Below are positions 7,379 through 50,760 of a stretch of DNA of 53,530 nucleotides, piece after piece. Every line of letters starts with the position of its first letter. Within the stretch, counting starts at the first letter, position 1. A program made the position numbers and the translations under genes. Origin of the DNA: an uncultured Oscillospiraceae bacterium. Its GTDB lineage: Bacteria; Bacillota; Clostridia; Oscillospirales; Oscillospiraceae. The stretch is from assembly GCA_944385125.1 (NCBI GenBank), contig CALWVZ010000008.1, positions 1-53,530 of the forward strand. The letters are read 5' to 3'. The notes under the pieces were generated by a model, which was given only the letters and a program-made list of their open reading frames with translations, was not told the origin of the DNA and ran no database searches.

Positions 7379-9439
7379 GTGAAGCACCCGGCTCTTGCCA
7401 GAGTATTTGCCATAGTGCTTGCGCTGCTCGGCAGCTTTATGCTCATAAATGGCGCTCTTGGTTTCGGTAAGGCCGACGGAACGCTGCAGGAAAGCCTTGA
7501 ATATTGCCAGCGTATTGAGGATAAGCTTGAGGAATATGAGGAACTGGACGCCAAGCTGGAAAACTCCATAAGCTATGACGAAGCCTTTGAAGAGCTGGAG
7601 CGCCTTCAGGATGAACACGACGAGGACGCTGCCCAGCACCGCACTGACCTTGCCACCCACACCGCTACCATGGGGGGCTACACCATGGGAGTGGACATGA
7701 TAATGGACGGAAAGGCGCAGTTGGAGCAGGCCAAGGAGGAGCTGGAGAGCGGCAAGCAGCAGCTAGCGGAGCAGGAAGCCCTTTTAAAGCAGTCCTCCGA
7801 GCAATTTGAAACAATGAAAAAAGCGCTCACACAGGCGATCGACCAGTTGGACGCTCTCACACCTGCCCTGGAGAATGGAGCGGCCAGCGTCTCAAAATAT
7901 GCTGCTGCCTTGGATGCTTTTATCAATTCTTCTGAACAGCCCGGCGGCGAAGAGGGCGGAGACCAGACCGGCGGCGGAGATCAGACCGGCGGCGGAGACC
8001 AGACCGGCGGCGAAGAGGGCGGAGGCCAGACCGGCGGCGGAGACCAGACCGGCGGCGGAGACCAGACCGGCGGCGGAGACCAGACCGGCGGCGGAGACCA
8101 GACCGGCGGCGGAGGCCAGACCGGCGGCGGAGACCAGACCGGCGGCGGAGACCAGACCGGCGGCGGAGACCAGACCGGCGGCGGAGACCAGACCGGCGGC
8201 GGAGGCCAGACCGGCGGCGGAGACCAGACCGACGGCGGCAGCACCGGCGGCGGGACCGGCGATGTAGACCAGACCGACGGCGGCAGCACCGGCGGGACCG
8301 GCGATGTAGACGGTATATCAGGAGAGAATCAGATTGAGCCGCCAGCCAAAGATACGACTTTGGTGGCCAGCGGCCTGAGTTATGAAGCCCCTGCCAGGGG
8401 GCTTGTGGCAACAGTCCTCAGTGGGATAAGCCCTCCGGAGGGAGGTAACCAGGACCAGGACCCGGAACCGGAACCTGAACCTGATGAGAGCTATAAAAAG
8501 CTTATAGATGAAATTAATTTAACCCTTTCAGATAATTTTCTCATCTCAAATGTAAACTTTTACAATGGTATTGTGTCGGTACTATCCCAGAGCAGTCCTG
8601 AGGTAGCCGGCATGCTGGGCGGCGCAATAACGATTCCCACATCCTTTGGATATGAGTCAGACCCGGCTGACGTAAAGGCTCAGCTGAACGATTTGGCGGC
8701 CCAGCTGACGGCGGCTGCGTCAGGGCCTGGGGCGCTGCAGAGTGCCTTGGATAACACGGCGGCTCAGCTGGCAAAAGGCCAGCAGGCTCTGGAAACTGCA
8801 AGGTATCAGGTGAACTCCGGGGAGGAGGCCCTGAAGAAGGGTGAATTTGAGCTGCAGCACCAGCTGGAGCTGCTGTGGTACAACATGGGTCAGCTGGATG
8901 ATGAAGCCGAGGAACTGGAAGAAAACAAGGAAAAGCTGGATGCCGAGGCTGACAAGCTGGACAAAATGTTGGTCAGCGTCGATGAGCTGAAAGAGCTGGA
9001 GGACAGCCGCCGTTCCGCCCGCATTATCCTGATGCAGGAGGACGGGATCGAGGCTATGGTGAATGACGGCGGCGATTTGGGCGAGAGTACCAGAAGCTTT
9101 CTGGAGCAGCAGCGCAGCACCGCCCAGTACGACCACTGGATACTGTATGTCATAAATACCCTGGCCGTTATAGGCGGCGTGCTGGGTATCCTCTGCATTC
9201 CCGGCAGCTATGAGCTGCTGCGCAGCCGCCTGTTGCTTATTGCTCCGCCTCTGCTGTGCCTGCTGTGCGCAGCGGCGGCCTGGGGGCTCAACCTGTATCA
9301 GGGCCTGGGGCAGATGTATACCGCCCTCTTTGCCGGTATCGGCGCCATGCTGCACCTGCTTATAGTCGTCCCCAAAAATAAAACGCCTGTAGCAGCGGAG
9401 GGACCCTCCGCCGACGAGCAGGCCGCTTCGGCGGAATAA
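7379..9439 (+). CDS. Membrane-anchored coiled-coil protein with Gly/Asp-Gln-Thr repeat, function unknown
   Basis: 686 aa from a GTG start. One membrane segment near residues 6-25 is followed by a long acidic coiled coil (to about 185), a low-complexity repeat (189-284) made of [12 protein letters not shown] units, a second linker repeat rich in [11 protein letters not shown], another coiled coil (about 440-580), and three C-terminal membrane helices (about 595-670) ending in a basic tail. The shape suggests an elongated loop on one face of the membrane anchored at both ends, loosely like YhgE/Pip-type proteins, but I do not recognise the family. The repeat DNA is nearly identical between units and therefore young. 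It stands alone between a divergent and a convergent neighbour. Confidence 0.75.
7943..8230 (+). repeat. In-frame 18-bp tandem repeat with a 90-bp higher-order unit
   Basis: The 288-bp tract is built on the unit ggcggcggagaccagacc (six residues, GGGDQT). Fifteen D/G-Q-T modules can be counted. Modules 5-9 and 10-14 share the same pattern (four GGGDQT then one GGGGQT), so a 90-bp block has been duplicated. Codon choice is the same in nearly every unit. A second degenerate repeat follows to about 8308. Confidence 0.95.
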
Positions 9440-15435: not shown

Positions 15436-15462
15436 TTAGCACTCGACTAGATTGAGTGCTAA
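15436..15462 (+). promoter_or_regulatory. CIRCE operator (HrcA binding site)
   Basis: TTAGCACTC, 9 nt, GAGTGCTAA: an exact match to the CIRCE consensus inverted repeat, 130 bp before the Hsp20 start. HrcA, the heat-shock repressor whose activity depends on GroEL, should repress this gene. Confidence 0.96.
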
Positions 15463-15592: not shown

Positions 15593-16033
15593 ATGTTTGA
15601 ACTTATTCCTTTTGATCGTCGTGTACACAGTGTTGCAGCTTTTGACCCCTTCCGTGAGTTTGATGAGCTTGAGCGCAGCTTCTTCGGCAACAGCGCGAGA
15701 AGCGTATCCGGTTTCAGGACCGACGTCACCGACACCGGCGATGCTTACAAGCTGGAGGCCGAACTCCCTGGCTTCAACAAGGATGACATCAAGATAGACA
15801 TCGAGGACGATTGCCTGACCATCAGTGCAGAGCGTTCCATGGAGAACAAGGAGGAGGACAAGCAGAACTTCGTCAAACGGGAGCGTTACTACGGCTCCTT
15901 CAGCAGGAGCTTCGATATATCCGGTATCGATGCCGACGCCATCGAAGCCAGCTATACCGACGGCGTGCTGACCCTGACCATGCCCAAGAAACAGGAGCAG
16001 CTGCCCGCCAGCCGCAGACTGGAGATCAAATAA
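15593..16033 (+). CDS. Hsp20/alpha-crystallin small heat-shock protein
   Basis: 146 aa ATP-independent chaperone that holds unfolding proteins. After a short N-terminal arm (MFELIPFDRR) comes the alpha-crystallin domain (about 40-130) with ELPGFNKDDIKIDIED, FVKRERYYGSFSRSF and the ASYTDGVLTLTMPK signature, then a short C-terminal tail. Start chosen after GGAGG. A perfect CIRCE upstream ties it to HrcA. Directly after its stop begins a 14-nt repeat array, followed by a terminator. Confidence 0.95.
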   Translation: MFELIPFDRRVHSVAAFDPFREFDELERSFFGNSARSVSGFRTDVTDTGDAYKLEAELPGFNKDDIKIDIEDDCLTISAERSMENKEEDKQNFVKRERYYGSFSRSFDISGIDADAIEASYTDGVLTLTMPKKQEQLPASRRLEIK

Positions 16034-16035
16034 GT

Positions 16036-16105
16036 TTATGTAAATCAAAATACGTAAACAATATTACGTAAATAAGATTAAGTAAACAAAATTATGTAAA
16101 TGAGC
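16036..16105 (+). repeat. Array of five 14-nt repeats (TTAYGTAAAY) in the hsp20 3' end
   Basis: Units start at 16036, 16050, 16064, 16078 and 16092, exactly 14 nt apart. The core reads ATGTAAAT, ACGTAAAC, ACGTAAAT, AAGTAAAC, ATGTAAAT, so the last base alternates T/C. The array starts 2 nt after the hsp20 stop and runs into the terminator. See the related array after recG. Confidence 0.9.
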
Positions 16106-16138
16106 GGAGCCGGATCTGATTCCGGCCCCGCTTATTTT
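16103..16138 (+). terminator. Terminator of hsp20
   Basis: Arms at 16103-16115 and 16120-16132 (GAGCGGAGCCGGA against TCCGGCCCCGCTT) followed by ATTTTCT. Confidence 0.8.
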
Positions 16139-16173: not shown

Positions 16174-16545
16174 CTATTTGCCCTTATCCTTGGGCTTAAA
16201 AATAAGGGCGGCTATCAAGCCAAAAAAGACCGCTGCGCACAACCCGGCGGAGGCGGCGGTAAAGCCTCCGGTAAAGGCGCCTAAAAGTCCGTCTTTTGCC
16301 ACGGCCTCCCGTATGCCCTTGGCCAGGTTGTGGCCGAATCCGGTGAGGGGAACGCAGGCTCCGGCTCCTGCCCAATCTACCAGAGGCTGATATAGTCCCA
16401 GGGCTGAGAGAATGACTCCGGCCACCACATAGCTGGTGAGTATCCGGGCTGGGGTGAGCTTGGTGTGGTCTATGAGCAGCTGGCCTATGGCGCAGAGCAT
16501 GCCTCCTACAAGAAAGGCTTTTGCATATTCCAGGAAGCTTTCCAT
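16174..16545 (-). CDS. spoVAE: Stage V sporulation protein AE (SpoVAEb type)
   Basis: 123 aa, four hydrophobic segments, e.g. AKAFLVGGMLCAIGQLL and SYVVAGVILSALGLYQPL; the G-F-G-H-N-L-A-K-G-I and GGFTAASAGLCAAV segments are typical of SpoVAE. It is an inner-membrane part of the SpoVA channel that moves calcium-dipicolinate into the forespore and out at germination. The ATG at 16545 follows AGAGG and lies 2 nt after the spoVAD stop. The longer frame reaching into spoVAD is rejected. Confidence 0.92.
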   Translation of the reverse strand: MESFLEYAKAFLVGGMLCAIGQLLIDHTKLTPARILTSYVVAGVILSALGLYQPLVDWAGAGACVPLTGFGHNLAKGIREAVAKDGLLGAFTGGFTAASAGLCAAVFFGLIAALIFKPKDKGK

Positions 16546-16547
16546 TC

Positions 16548-17561
16548 TCAGACCTCTCTTTCTATGGCCACTGCGTGGCAGATACCGGGGATGCTGCCAC
16601 CCTGCTGGCAGCTGAGAGGAGACATGAGCGCTCCTGTAGCGGCTACCAGCACCCGGTTCCAGACGCCCTTCTCCAAGCCCTTCAGAATGTGGCCGCAGAG
16701 CACCGAGGCACAGCAGCCGCAGCCGGAGCCTCCGCAATGGACGTCCTGGGTACTCAGGTCATAAATTAAAACTCCGCAGTCCATGTATCTTGCCCCCAGG
16801 TCTACGCCCTCGTCGGCCATCAATTTTTGAAGTATATCATGGCCCATGGCCCCCAGGTCCCCGGTGAATACTGCGTCGTAATAGCTCAGGTCCCGGCCGG
16901 TGTCTTCAAAATGGCGTTTTATGGTCTCAAAGGCCGCAGGGGCCATGGCGGAACCCATGCTGTTGGCATCCTTGATACCGGCGTCCACAATTATCCCGGG
17001 GGTAATATGAGTGATATATGGCCCATGGCCCCGGGAGGATAAAATCGCAGCCCCGGCTCCTGTCACTGTCCACTGGGAAGTTGGCGGGCGTTGGCCTCCG
17101 TATTCCAGAGGGAAACGGTACTGGCGCTCGGCAGAGCAGAAGTGGGAGCCGGTCACTGCGCAGGCCAGGTCCCCGAACCCCCCGTCAATGCACATGGCTG
17201 CCAGAGACAGAGATTCAACCATGGTGGAACATGCTCCGTACAGCCCGAAGTAGGGACTGCCGCTGTCTTTCATGGCAAAGGCTGAACTGACACACTGGTT
17301 CAGCAGATCCCCGGAAAATATGAAGTCCAGCTGAGACGGAGCTATCCCGGCCTTGTCGCAGCACAGGGAAAAGCAACGCTTCAACATTTGGCTCTCAGCC
17401 TTTTCCCAGGTGCTCTGGTCGAAATAGGAGTCCTGGGAGATATAGTCAAAGCAGCGTTTTAAAGGTCCTTCCCCTTCCTTTTTGCCAGCCACACTGGCCG
17501 AGGCCGCTATGGATACCGGCTTTGCCAGCTTCAAGGTCTGCCTGCCAATCTTCTTGCTCAT
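16548..17561 (-). CDS. spoVAD: Stage V sporulation protein AD
   Basis: 337 aa thiolase-fold protein of the SpoVA dipicolinic-acid channel. Seen: FDYISQDSYFDQSTWEKAE, GLYGACSTMVESL (at the position of the thiolase cysteine), the QWTVTGAGAAIL region and C-terminal GGSGCGCCASVLCG. Start at 17561 gives the usual MSKKIGRQTLKL opening after AAAGG. spoVAE follows. The upstream minus strand has GCATA and, 20 nt on, AATAATA, loosely like sigma-G/F promoters. No spoVAC is next to it, although AC-AD-AE is the common order. Confidence 0.95.
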   Translation of the reverse strand: MSKKIGRQTLKLAKPVSIAASASVAGKKEGEGPLKRCFDYISQDSYFDQSTWEKAESQMLKRCFSLCCDKAGIAPSQLDFIFSGDLLNQCVSSAFAMKDSGSPYFGLYGACSTMVESLSLAAMCIDGGFGDLACAVTGSHFCSAERQYRFPLEYGGQRPPTSQWTVTGAGAAILSSRGHGPYITHITPGIIVDAGIKDANSMGSAMAPAAFETIKRHFEDTGRDLSYYDAVFTGDLGAMGHDILQKLMADEGVDLGARYMDCGVLIYDLSTQDVHCGGSGCGCCASVLCGHILKGLEKGVWNRVLVAATGALMSPLSCQQGGSIPGICHAVAIEREV

Positions 17562-17912: not shown

Positions 17913-19099
17913 TGGCTAGGATCGCTTTTTTCAATATCCCTGCACATGGGCATACCAACCCGACGCTGGGGGTGGTGAGAGAACTGATAAGCCGTGGGCA
18001 CAGTGTGAGCTACTATTCCTATGAGAGTTTGCGGGAAAAAATAGAGGCGGCGGGGGCCCGCTTCATAGCCTGCGACGCTTATGATGCGCAGCTTGGACTG
18101 GGCCCTGAAGACGGAGCCAGAATAGCCAGGGACACGGCTTTTTCCATCCATGTACTGGTGGAGACCACCCTGGCCCTGGATACCATGGTATGCCGTGAAA
18201 TGGAAAGGGAAAGGCCAGACTGCATAGTGGCCGACTCAATGGCTGTGTGGGGCAAGGCGGCGGCGCTGAAACTGGGCGTCCCCTTTGTGTCATCCACCAC
18301 CACCTTTGCCTTCAACCGGGAGTCGGCAAAGCTGATGAAGCAAAGTTTAAGCCGGACCATGGCTATGCTGCTGAGCATTCCGAAGATGAACAAGGACGTA
18401 AGGCGCCTGGAGAAAATGGGCTACCCCATAAAAAGCTTTTTACAGCTTATATCAAACGACAGAGATACGGATACCATCGTATATACCTCCCCGGAATTCC
18501 AGCCCTGTTATGAGAGCTTTTCCGAAAAATATTCCTTTGTGGGTCCCTGCATCCTGCCGCCTGCAAGCAGCTTCGAAAAGAAAAAGGAAAAGCTCGTGTA
18601 CATTTCCATGGGTACCGTGAACAACAATATGCCGGAAGTCTACAAAAACTGCATAGCTGCCGCTGCGGATATGGATGCACAGGTGCTCATCTCTGCCGGG
18701 GCCCTGGCTGACGGGGACGCCCTGGGGGAACTGCCGGAGAACGTGCAGGTAAGAAGATGGGTAGACCAGACCGCCGTGCTGAAGGAGACCGACGTGTTCC
18801 TCAGTCACTGCGGCATGAACAGCGCCAGCGAGAGCCTGTACTTCGGAGCGCCCTTATTATGCTATCCCCAGACTGCCGAACAGGGAGCGGTGGCAGAGAG
18901 GATCAGGCAGCTGGGAGCGGGCGCAGCACTTTCGTCGGCCTCGGCAGCGGATATCAGGGCCGGGTTGGAGCTGCTTATGGAAAATGGCAGCTACAAATTA
19001 AACGCAGAGAAAATAGGGGAGAGCTTCCGCCGCTGCGGCGGAGCCAAGGCTGCCGCAGATAAAATAGAGAGCATGATAACGGGTTTACATAACTTATAA
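17912..19099 (+). CDS. MGT-type family 1 glycosyltransferase
   Basis: 395 aa GT-B enzyme like macrolide/UDP-glucuronosyl transferases (YjiC/YojK type). N-terminal acceptor domain begins with IAFFNIPAHGHTNPTLGVV; the donor-binding C-terminal half contains VYISMGTV and the signature SHCGMNSASESLYFGAPLL with PQTAEQ. It should transfer a sugar from an NDP donor to a small hydrophobic acceptor; the acceptor is unknown. The start codon overlaps the AbrB-like stop. A terminator follows about 60 nt after the stop. Confidence 0.9.
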   Translation: MARIAFFNIPAHGHTNPTLGVVRELISRGHSVSYYSYESLREKIEAAGARFIACDAYDAQLGLGPEDGARIARDTAFSIHVLVETTLALDTMVCREMERERPDCIVADSMAVWGKAAALKLGVPFVSSTTTFAFNRESAKLMKQSLSRTMAMLLSIPKMNKDVRRLEKMGYPIKSFLQLISNDRDTDTIVYTSPEFQPCYESFSEKYSFVGPCILPPASSFEKKKEKLVYISMGTVNNNMPEVYKNCIAAAADMDAQVLISAGALADGDALGELPENVQVRRWVDQTAVLKETDVFLSHCGMNSASESLYFGAPLLCYPQTAEQGAVAERIRQLGAGAALSSASAADIRAGLELLMENGSYKLNAEKIGESFRRCGGAKAAADKIESMITGLHNL

Positions 19100-19208: not shown

Positions 19209-19226
19209 AAAATTATGTAAACCTAT
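19209..19226 (+). repeat. Single copy of the TTATGTAAAC repeat
   Basis: AAAATTATGTAAACCTA at 19209-19225 is identical to 17 nt at 35922-35938. Both copies lie just after a terminator, between convergent genes. Confidence 0.75.
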
Positions 19227-35921: not shown

Positions 35922-35939
35922 AAAATTATGTAAACCTAA
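35922..35939 (+). repeat. Single copy of the TTATGTAAAC repeat
   Basis: AAAATTATGTAAACCTA at 35922-35938, identical to 19209-19225, placed between the terminator of the antiporter operon and the convergent trpB gene. Confidence 0.75.
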
Positions 35940-41899: not shown

Positions 41900-42054
41900 C
41901 TTATAAAACTTGAGCTTCTAACTCAATCAATAAGGCAACAGAAGTTGCCACCCCACCCGGGGTTTATCGGCATTCGACCCGGCTGTCCGTGTGGCCTTGG
42001 CTGCAAAAGCAGCGGTCGCTATCTTGCTTCGGATAGACTCTATCCAATTGAGAC
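41900..42054 (-). ncRNA. Candidate structured non-coding RNA with its own consensus promoter (possibly raiA-motif-like)
   Basis: A near-perfect promoter fires into about 150 nt without a credible gene. The RNA would contain GGATAG-AGT-CTATCC, GCTGC-TTTT-GCAGC, CCCC-GGGT-GGGG, a tRNA T-arm-like GCCGGGTCGAATGCC, GGCAAC-TTCT-GTTGCC and a final TTGAG/CTCAA stem before GTTTTATAA. The mixed D-arm-like and T-arm-like pieces recall the tRNA-like raiA-motif RNAs of Firmicutes, but this is a resemblance from memory, not a model hit. It could also be the far 5' leader of potA, which lies on the same strand. Confidence 0.5.
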
Positions 42055-48345: not shown

Positions 48346-48421
48346 GTTGACATAATTTTTTGAATCATTAAGCAACAGGTTGACATAAGCTTATATTTAA
48401 CTGGATTTCTAGTTGACATAA
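48346..48421 (-). repeat. Three copies of GTTGACATAA exactly 33 bp apart
   Basis: Copies start at 48346, 48379 and 48412. Read on the minus strand they are TTATGTCAAC, one base from the TTATGTAAAC unit seen elsewhere. They lie beyond the terminator of the 56-aa ORF. The sequence between the copies is unrelated. Confidence 0.75.
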
Positions 48422-48482: not shown

Positions 48483-48653
48483 TTAAAAAAGTTGGAGCAT
48501 CAGGGTTGAAAGCGAGATTATCATAACACCTGCAGAAAACACAAGGATAACTCTTTTCAGCTTGCCCTCAGAGCTTGAGGCTCTGTCTAAGCTGCCGGAA
48601 AAAAGAGCGGCAAGCAGGGCTGCCATAAACAGCGCCAATGGAGGTACTTTCAT
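48483..48653 (-). CDS. Putative 56-aa two-helix membrane peptide
   Basis: ATG at 48653, TAA at 48483. The peptide has two hydrophobic stretches (PPLALFMAALLAALFSG; VILVFSAGVMIISLSTLML) joined by a charged loop (SLDRASSSEGKLKR), a clear helical hairpin. AAAGG lies about 10 nt upstream, inside the recG-proximal 14-nt repeat array, and a strong terminator follows. Too short to name; coding status is inferred from hydrophobic pattern and context. Confidence 0.5.
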   Translation of the reverse strand: MKVPPLALFMAALLAALFSGSLDRASSSEGKLKRVILVFSAGVMIISLSTLMLQLF

Positions 48654-48703
48654 TTACATAACCTTTATTACATAATATTAATTACATAATTCGATTTACA
48701 TAA
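48648..48703 (-). repeat. Array of four 14-nt repeats (TTATGTAAW) after recG
   Basis: On the minus strand units run 48703-48690, 48689-48676, 48675-48662 and 48661-48648, all starting TTATGTAA. The first is TTATGTAAATCGAA, 13/14 identical to unit 1 of the hsp20 array. The array begins 2 nt after the recG stop, the same offset as at hsp20. Confidence 0.9.
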
Positions 48704-48705
48704 CA

Positions 48706-50760
48706 TCAATTGAAACCTGTGCTGTTGGCTCTGTAAAGCTGTTCCACCTTATCTCTCAAGGCCAGGTGCTCCGGCAGACAGAGCTCAGGGTCCAGCTCCA
48801 ACAGACGGCGGCTCTCCTCCTGGGCCTGCTGCAACACCTGCACATCTGCTCCCAGGTCGGCCACATGCATATCCGGCAGGCCGTGCTGTCTTGAACCGAA
48901 AAAGTCCCCGGGGCCCCTGAGGCGCAGGTCTTCCTCGGAGATCTTAAAGCCGTCGCCGGTTTTGCACATTATGCTCAGCCTGGATCTTACTTCCGGGCTG
49001 TCATTGTCGGAGACCAGTATACAGTAGCTCTTGTGCTTGCCCCGGCCTACCCGACCCCTGAGCTGATGGAGCTGGCTGAGACCGAACCTGTCGGCATTCT
49101 CCACTATCATTAGGGAAGCGTTGGGCACGTCCACGCCCACCTCTATCACGGTAGTGGCCACCAGTATCTGTATCCGGCCGGAGACGAAGGCAGACATGGT
49201 TTCTTCCTTGTCCCTTGCTTTCATTTTCCCGTGGATGCAGGCCACCTTCAGGTCAGGAAACACAGCGGAGAGCTGGGCTGCATGTTCCTGAGCGGATTTG
49301 AGCCTCATGTTCAGCTCTTCGTTTTCTTCCACCATGGGACAGACCACAAAAACCTGCCGGCCGTCCTGGACCTGCTTCCTTATAAAGCTGTTGAGGCGGG
49401 CCCTGTAGCTCTCGTCCACAGCGAAAGTATCCACTTTCTGACGTCCTGGGGGCAGCTGGTCAATGACGGAGATGTCCAGATCTCCGTAGATTATCAGGGC
49501 CAGGGTGCGGGGGATAGGTGTGGCGGACATGACCAGGACGTGGGGGCGGGCCCCCTTGCTTATAAGAGCCGAGCGCTGGTTCACACCAAAACGGTGCTGC
49601 TCGTCGGTGACCACCAGGGCCAGGTTCCTGTATTCCACGTCCTGACTGAACAAAGCGTGGGTACCTACGATAAGATCCAGCTCGCCCTTTTGCAGCTGGG
49701 CCTTTATCAGACGCTTTTCTTTCGCCCCCATTGCGCCGGTGAGCTTGCCCACCCTCAAGCCGAAAGCTGAGAGCATGGAGCTGAGAGTGTCGTAATGCTG
49801 CTGGGCCAGTATTTCCGTCGGCGCCATAAAGGCGCTCATATATCCGTTTTCGGCACAGAGCCATATCAGGGCTGCCGCCGCCAAGGTCTTTCCGCTGCCT
49901 ACGTCCCCTTGGATCAGGCGGTTCATCACTGCTCCGGAACACATATCCTCCGCCGCCTGGCCGACGGCTCGGAGCTGAGCGTTGGTAGGGCGAAAGGGCA
50001 GAGAAGACCAGAAAGGCTCCATATCAAGGGGAGCGAGTCGGATGCCCTCCTCCGTACTGCGCCGGCGGTGCATACGGCCCAGAGCGCAGGAGAGAACAAA
50101 GAGCTCCTCAAAAATCAGCCGTCTCCGGGCCAGCTCCAGAGCTTCAAAGTCCGGGGGAAAATGGATGTTCTCATAGGCATAGCGGGCCTGAGAGAGACGG
50201 CAGCGCAGGCGGATATCCTCAGGCAGTACATCCGGCAGGCTGTCCAGACAGATGTCCAGCCCCTGGCGTACTGCCTGCATTATACTCCTTTGATTAAGCC
50301 CTGAGCTGAGACGGTACACCGGCACTATGCGCCCGGTAACCTGTCCGGCACGTTCCGCCGGTTCATATACCGGGTTTACCATGCAGCGCCGATTGCCCTT
50401 GAATTCCAGCCGTCCATAGAAATTGTAGCACTCGCCGCGGCGGAGATTGTCTTTGGAATAGGCTTGATTGAAAAATGTTATGTCAACTGAGCCGCTGTCG
50501 TCAACGGCCCGCAGCTTCACCAGGTCCATGCCCCGGCGAATGTGGCTGAGCCTGGGGGTGTCGGCCACCAGGGCCTGGATGCATACGTTTTCCCCGTCCA
50601 TGGTCATGGCGATGGGACATATGCGGCTCCTGTCCTCATATTTCCTGGGGAAAAAAGAAATAAGGTCATAGAGAGAAAAGACGCCCAGCTTGTTTAGGGC
50701 CAGCGCCTTTTTCTCTCCTATTCCTTTGAGGTATCGTACCTGGGTATTCAGATCAGCCAT
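48706..50760 (-). CDS. recG: ATP-dependent DNA helicase RecG
   Basis: 684 aa superfamily 2 helicase that regresses stalled replication forks and migrates Holliday junctions. N-terminal wedge/OB domain (about 1-230), Walker A in QGDVGSGKT, DEQH box in VVTDEQHRFG, SATPIPRTLAL, then the C-terminal helicase lobe with ATTVIEVGVDVPNAS and QLRGRVGRG, and the TRG motif region FFGSRQHGLPD. Full length. It is followed on the same strand by a 14-nt repeat array and precedes apbE by only 2 nt on the other side, so the three genes are likely co-transcribed. Confidence 0.96.
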   Translation of the reverse strand: MADLNTQVRYLKGIGEKKALALNKLGVFSLYDLISFFPRKYEDRSRICPIAMTMDGENVCIQALVADTPRLSHIRRGMDLVKLRAVDDSGSVDITFFNQAYSKDNLRRGECYNFYGRLEFKGNRRCMVNPVYEPAERAGQVTGRIVPVYRLSSGLNQRSIMQAVRQGLDICLDSLPDVLPEDIRLRCRLSQARYAYENIHFPPDFEALELARRRLIFEELFVLSCALGRMHRRRSTEEGIRLAPLDMEPFWSSLPFRPTNAQLRAVGQAAEDMCSGAVMNRLIQGDVGSGKTLAAAALIWLCAENGYMSAFMAPTEILAQQHYDTLSSMLSAFGLRVGKLTGAMGAKEKRLIKAQLQKGELDLIVGTHALFSQDVEYRNLALVVTDEQHRFGVNQRSALISKGARPHVLVMSATPIPRTLALIIYGDLDISVIDQLPPGRQKVDTFAVDESYRARLNSFIRKQVQDGRQVFVVCPMVEENEELNMRLKSAQEHAAQLSAVFPDLKVACIHGKMKARDKEETMSAFVSGRIQILVATTVIEVGVDVPNASLMIVENADRFGLSQLHQLRGRVGRGKHKSYCILVSDNDSPEVRSRLSIMCKTGDGFKISEEDLRLRGPGDFFGSRQHGLPDMHVADLGADVQVLQQAQEESRRLLELDPELCLPEHLALRDKVEQLYRANSTGFN

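Follow-up and report, generated by a model that had tools for sequence, protein, structure and literature searches.

Tandem arrays, at 14-bp pitch, of a 10-mer resembling the XerD arm of dif in a genus of Oscillospiraceae

In dif, the 28-bp site at which XerC and XerD resolve chromosome dimers, a 6-bp centre separates the XerC arm from an XerD arm in inverted orientation, and as a rule a chromosome carries a single copy. Karaboja and colleagues are said to have found in 2021 that the unloading sites of XerD in Bacillus subtilis are XerD-specific and independent of both XerC and dif. In B. subtilis, XerD has been reported to unload SMC in a sequence-specific manner (PMC12322038), and another paper locates SMC unloading by XerD at dif itself (PMC13342612). 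A further paper gives a table of 48 published dif sites with their left (XerC) and right (XerD) arms, describes dif positions 23 and 24 as variable and the A at position 25 as conserved, and links two sites, difSL and difH, to the genes of their own recombinases, xerS and xerH (PMC2731167). For XerH, a relative, specific reading of the inner 5 bp of each arm is reported, with 10 to 11 bp covered (PMC5241119). Here we describe arrays that, unlike dif, carry XerD-type arms head to tail, with 2 to 12 units per array and many arrays per genome.

The window, that is, the whole stretch of DNA analysed, comprises 53,530 nt from an uncultured Oscillospiraceae bacterium (genome G000; 2.0 Mb, 76% complete), whose RecG likewise places it in this family, the best named relative being Candidatus Limivicinus faecipullorum (90% RecG identity). 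The features discussed below are collected in Table 1. The original prediction had described five units of TTAYGTAAAY beginning 2 nt past the hsp20 stop codon, with the last core base alternating T, C, T, C, T. Our own gene calls reproduced the 2-nt offset, and both the alternation and the exact 14-bp steps (unit starts at 16036, 16050, 16064, 16078 and 16092) were found as described, but only units 1, 3 and 5 match this 10-mer exactly. Indeed, the units read, in order, TTATGTAAAT, ATACGTAAAC, TTACGTAAAT, TTAAGTAAAC and TTATGTAAAT, and units 2 (ATACGTAAAC) and 4 (TTAAGTAAAC) have one mismatch each to TTAYGTAAAY; with position 7 left free (TTAYGTNAAY), the mismatches are 0, 1, 0, 1 and 0. Similarly, a second array had been noticed at the same offset after recG. 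Both the array and its offset are real (48703 down to 48652 on the minus strand), but two of its four units are exact (0, 1, 2 and 0 mismatches to TTAYGTNAAY), and the T/C alternation of the last core base does not hold there. The gap downstream of recG also holds array 3, in which the first TTATGTCAAC shares bases with the T run of a hairpin that looks like a terminator (judged by eye). Copies of TTATGTCAAC were also found 3' of recG in three relatives (L096-L098; spacings of 33, 34 or 67 bp), and a single one in L099. Compared with the 14-bp arrays, array 3 shows the word in a C variant and in a second register.

Table 1. Coordinates of the arrays, single sites and adjoining features in the 53.5-kb window
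Feature	Position	Strand	Remarks
hsp20-type small heat shock gene	15593..16033	+	Best model Hsp18_Clos, 128.7 bits, under its cut-off of 195
Array 1	16036..16101	+	Five 10-mers at 14-bp pitch, 2 nt past the hsp20 stop
Terminator-like hairpin	16098..16137	+	Starts inside the last unit of array 1; fold computed
Single exact 10-mer	19083..19092	-	At the 3' end of an opposite-strand gene
Single exact 10-mer	19213..19222	+	Convergent gap, next to a terminator-like hairpin
Single exact 10-mer	35926..35935	+	Convergent gap
Array 3	48346..48421	-	TTATGTCAAC three times without mismatch, spaced 33 bp apart; shares the recG-downstream gap with array 2
Array 2	48652..48703	-	Four 10-mers at 14-bp pitch, 2 nt past the recG stop
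recG	48706..50760	-	Followed by arrays 2 and 3

Several other features of the window were recorded. Upstream of hsp20, an inverted repeat, TTAGCACTC-N9-GAGTGCTAA, occupies 15436-15462, and we take it to be CIRCE-like. Array 1 sets hsp20 apart from converging SpoVAC/SpoVAEB-type and SpoVAD genes (16174-17561, minus strand). About 16 copies of an 18-bp repeat lie at 7955-8238, inside a 686-aa ORF (7379-9439), and SpF59/ldcC RNA, an Rfam family that takes its name from Streptococcus, was matched at 41967-42018 (minus strand, 68.5 bits).

The array word is strongly overrepresented. In the window, TTAYGTAAAY occurs exactly eight times against 0.13 expected, a number that none of 100 shuffles reached, and TTAYGTNAAY has 12 sites. 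In the whole genome, 63 exact 10-mers were counted, compared to 5 for the reversed pattern, and 25 pairs at 14 bp (at most three mismatches), compared to 0. The predicted excess over chance thus extends genome-wide and is large. The anatomy of the unit was derived from 224 units in 68 distinct arrays, 10 of them from G000 and 58 from relatives, the array-bearing relatives having been sampled because of their 14-bp pairs. The consensus was T-T-A-T-G-T-N-A-A-Y: positions 2, 3, 5 and 6 were near-invariant, position 7 was free (132 A, 68 T, 16 C and 8 G), position 10 was T or C, and the spacers were A/T-rich. With at most one mismatch allowed, the only direct spacings with at least four cases in sampled G000 DNA were 14 (12 cases), 28 (8 cases) and 42 bp (5 cases). 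Among the relatives, spacings of 14, 28, 42, 56 and 70 bp, plus 33 and 67 bp, reached this number, the 14-bp excess in them being biased because they had been picked for 14-bp pairs. Spacings of 13 and 15 bp had fewer than four cases in both G000 and the relatives.

We compared this unit with the arms of dif. In the table of published sites, 36 of the 48 right (XerD) arms are at most one mismatch away from TTAYGTNAAY, five of them being exact, compared to only 6 of the 48 left (XerC) arms (PMC2731167). Likewise, a matrix built from the arrays gave a mean of 10.7 bits on XerD arms and of -2.6 bits on XerC arms. The unit agrees with the XerD half-site TTATGTNAAN and contains its conserved inner TTATG, which resembles the inner 5-bp specificity of XerH. 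The likeness to dif thus comprises the 10-mer itself, the free position 7 and a pitch of 14 bp, half of the 28-bp dif. Positions 23-24 and 25 of dif correspond to unit positions 6-7 and 8, yet position 6 is near-fixed in the arrays. The XerD of G000 scores 333 bits, over the curated cut-off. The array unit is a DNA half-site, very probably for XerD. The earlier suggestion of a protein-binding array at gene 3' ends gains support from this match and from the association with the xerD locus described below.

Canonical dif sites were also searched for. In G000, 16 matches were obtained, as many as in the control (16), an XerC arm did not occur above control level, and none was assigned; in the family, 52 matches against 34 in the control did not make a canonical dif clearly present. 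A dif made of two inverted XerD arms was matched at 21 sites in the genus, spread over 17 of 61 genomes, and the control gave 13; again none was assigned. Because there is no canonical dif in G000, nor clearly one in the family, the specificity of XerD used here is borrowed from other bacteria. One family genome carries a canonical-looking dif, CACTCCATAATATATATTATGTTAAT (G010 C4:48348-48373), as an apparent exception in the family.

The same word is found upstream of xerD. As a motif-independent sample, we used 19 loci with a full-length Xer-type gene whose score resembles that of XerD in G000. These genes had been picked up as best hits to the XerC model, and 19 of the 21 full-length XerD-type hits were read for upstream sites. 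The curated XerD cut-off was passed by 18 of the 19 loci; the gene of G126 fell short, scoring 295 bits against the required 329.6, but no model fitted it better than XerD. For L306, L308, L309 and L317, the gene used in this check was taken from the profile-hit coordinates. An exact TTAYGTNAAY was present within about 2 kb upstream of the XerD-type gene in 18 of the 19 loci (13 of 14 in the genus and all five from other families), amounting to 43 sites in 44.8 kb. For comparison, G000 samples had 4 sites in 380 kb, a low value since several of the samples came from contigs without the motif; an array-bearing genus contig had 5 in 100 kb, G128 had 1 in 194 kb, and the window itself had 12 in 53.5 kb. 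Furthermore, a tandem pair is present upstream of the XerD-type gene in each of the five loci from other families, with a spacing of 14 bp in four of them and of 15 bp in the fifth. The further XerD-type hits of G000 and G128 each have an upstream site. The pair found in family genomes lies near tgt or xerD, in the same region, in 14 of the 17 family loci read (neighbourhoods were judged by eye, that of L083 by a conserved promoter block), and an inverted site is located about 95 bp from the pair in about six loci. In G000, three TTATGTCAAY sites occur in the tgt/xerD region (L223, G000:C4).

In several families, copies of the 10-mer surround the promoter presumed for the xerD operon, which suggests possible XerD autoregulation, in which XerD bound near its own presumed promoter would regulate itself. 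This arrangement recalls difSL/xerS and difH/xerH in that the site is linked to a recombinase gene (PMC2731167). Unlike difSL and difH, the pair upstream of xerD consists of direct repeats instead of inverted arms, and it is situated in what is presumed to be a promoter region. The family pair was also considered as an unconventional dif; being a direct repeat whose first unit has the full 10-mer, it reads better as two XerD sites. A SpoIIM-like label for the gene preceding xerD was discarded as unsupported by protein families.

A position at the xerD promoter region is also where any regulator of this operon would sit, and it is conceivable, if rather unlikely in our estimation, that the arrays bind another protein reading a similar word, either a second Xer-type recombinase near xerD or some regulator acting on the xerD operon. 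Indeed, a second Xer-type gene lies 5 to 13 kb from xerD in six genus genomes (for example, G078 C10:46712-47617) and 38 kb away in G061. It scores 231 to 237 bits to the XerC model, whose cut-off of 335 was passed by none of 30 genomes and by only 2 of 14 control genomes. Additionally, the sites at xerD in the genus are often TTATGTC/TAAY and the array units mostly TTATGTA/TAAY; since these variants differ, two proteins could read the two of them. However, the match to the XerD arm, the free position 7 and the half-dif pitch would then all be coincidence. We thus retain XerD as the most plausible ligand of the arrays.

We next consider where the arrays lie relative to genes, which were called with a simple custom caller. 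Four arrays inside called genes and two without both flanks were dropped from the 68, leaving 62, with 27 in gaps between convergent genes, 28 between tandem genes and 7 between divergent ones; the gaps of at least 20 nt available in those loci numbered 43, 97 and 39, respectively. An array was found at most 5 nt from a gene 3' end in 29 of the 62 cases, compared to 10.5 expected from uniform placement in the same gaps, and 0 of 20,000 simulations reached this count. Since many arrays are orthologous, the raw figure overstates their independence. Arrays with a common flanking protein were therefore collapsed (62 arrays to 38 groups, 200 draws), which left 13.1 of 38 groups at this distance against 6.2 expected (median P 0.0015, largest 0.028), with 15.2 convergent, 18.0 tandem and 4.8 divergent gaps. 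The link of the arrays to gene 3' ends stands, although it is weaker than the raw count. Among the 33 arrays at most 12 nt from a gene end, 19 have the same orientation as the gene and 14 the opposite one (12 and 7 per group). The link to stop codons expected in the original prediction is thus seen as an excess at gene 3' ends, but it occurs in both orientations and is not tied to one reading direction. Moreover, 26 of the 63 exact 10-mers of G000 lie inside called genes, four of the 26 being at most 25 nt away from where the gene ends, and TTATGTAAAC occurs 24 times within called genes, compared to about 1 expected from codon usage. The mixed orientation and the intragenic sites therefore argue that the site acts on DNA rather than on RNA, although the folding of array 1 as RNA, described below, speaks against this.

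This bears directly on two other readings. The first is a translation device, either a readthrough trap with TAA in three frames or an ATGTAA start-stop that would govern reinitiation. The TAA and ATGTAA words are present on the sense strand of array 1 exactly as had been described. However, 14 of the 33 near-end arrays are antisense, 35 of the 224 units are without ATGTAA because they have no T at position 4, and sites are also located inside genes and upstream of xerD, and we regard this proposal as hardly credible. The second is a transcription device at 3' ends, such as a roadblock, an aid to terminators or a protein-bound RNA repeat. It would fit the position of array 1 between the hsp20 stop and the terminator-like hairpin, the abutment of arrays on gene 3' ends beyond chance, and the finding that the RNA of array 1 folds better than its shuffles (z -3.1, equalled by none of 200), as does that of array 2 (z -2.4, equalled by 7 of 200). 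This folding may be a consequence of the near-palindromic core. In two loci, inverted 10-mer pairs flank a hairpin (TTATGTAAAC...GTTTACATAA; L059 11526-11565 and L073 123-163), much like a two-way terminator. Against a role in transcription speak the mixed orientation, the many intragenic sites and the 7 of 62 arrays in divergent gaps; in addition, an Rfam scan of the window gave no family at gathering score over the arrays, the only matches being SpF59 and a tRNA, both elsewhere. We consider such a device improbable. The inverted pairs on hairpins had also raised the possibility of a DNA uptake sequence. Such systems typically have copy numbers far above 63 in 2 Mb, and the idea was dropped because 63 copies are too few.

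The arrays are conserved at orthologous positions. The relative G063 (locus L304) retains the hsp20 array, again with five units, and the short comparison of 66 bp shows five substitutions, three in spacers and two at Y positions; the hsp20 gene itself differs at 7 of 441 bases. For recG, 29 of 80 RecG loci were examined. The array downstream persists in L096-L101 and L149, where its spacers and its number of units have changed, whereas L108 has two loose units, L111 and L116 have one unit each, and 19 of the 29 relatives examined have no array at this place. This absence, together with the tandem form of 2 to 12 units and the AT-richness, would be compatible with functionless repeats, mobile or born by slippage, that happened to land after stop codons. 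Such an origin is nevertheless very unlikely, given that arrays are kept at orthologous places with the core retained and the spacers diverged, that they follow a 14-bp register and its multiples, and that single sites also exceed chance. The proposal of a mobile repeat targeting stop codons is disfavoured by the same orthologous arrays with changed spacers and unit numbers. The near-identical dispersed copies with defined ends that characterize MITE- or REP-like elements were not found: the 10-mer is common to the arrays, and the spacers and unit numbers vary.

To describe how far the arrays extend, we counted pairs at 14 bp in the genus, the family and the class. In the genus, TTATGTNAAY pairs (at most one mismatch) were found in 52 of 61 genomes with one control match overall, and 9 of the 61 had no pair at this threshold. 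In the family, TTAYGTAAAY pairs (at most two mismatches) were present in 40 of 61 genomes, with 82 matches against 12 in the control as counted from the result rows; without the two genomes belonging to the genus, 53 against 12 remained. Exactly one pair was found in 27 of the 40 pair-bearing family genomes. In the class, exact pairs occurred in 6 of 291 genomes, one of which is G000 (7 matches against 4 in the control). Single sites in the complete genome G128, which is of the same order, were hardly enriched (37 against 25 in the control). Within genomes, the arrays are clustered: among the matches listed (118 arrays in 26 genomes, one row of G092 left out), 14 pairs of arrays lie within 10 kb, compared to at most 2.7 expected. 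This fits a chromosomal domain but also AT-rich islands. In terminus tests by GC skew and strand bias, the skew was weak; the contigs are short and cannot be ordered, and none of the marker motifs looked for was found.

Taken together, we consider it reasonably probable, from the sequence evidence presented here, that the arrays are head-to-tail rows of XerD docking sites without an XerC arm, comparable to the XerD-dependent unloading of SMC in B. subtilis; the proposed likeness is that of DNA-bound XerD acting as an SMC unloader. Each array would consist of head-to-tail half-sites. Since 14 bp is what an 11-bp arm and one half of the 6-bp centre add up to, one XerD monomer would occupy each unit, with the next within reach and presumably touching it. 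Lacking an XerC arm inverted in the usual way, the arrays are not expected to recombine. They stand at gene 3' ends and are rare between divergent genes, in which promoters are expected; as docking stations, they would act on the chromosome, most likely by SMC unloading as in B. subtilis. Going further, we tentatively raise the possibility that XerD polymerises head to tail on the tandem half-sites and thereby forms recombination-silent stations at gene 3' ends over part of the chromosome, which would uncouple the unloading or halting of SMC from dif, the canonical dif having been lost and the XerD arm multiplied. This last scenario is possible, but we hold it with much reserve.

The XerD arm of dif and SMC unloading by XerD are known, whereas tandem arrays of putative XerD half-sites would be new; in the open-licence literature, we found no report of tandem 14-bp XerD half-sites or of XerD autoregulation. 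If XerD binds the arrays, a whole genus would possess natural multi-copy XerD platforms without an XerC arm, and a recombination-independent role of XerD would become directly testable outside Bacillus. The pair upstream of xerD in several families of one order points to XerD autoregulation. Overall, if our reading is correct, these arrays would illustrate how a mark that organises the chromosome becomes distributed over a genome.
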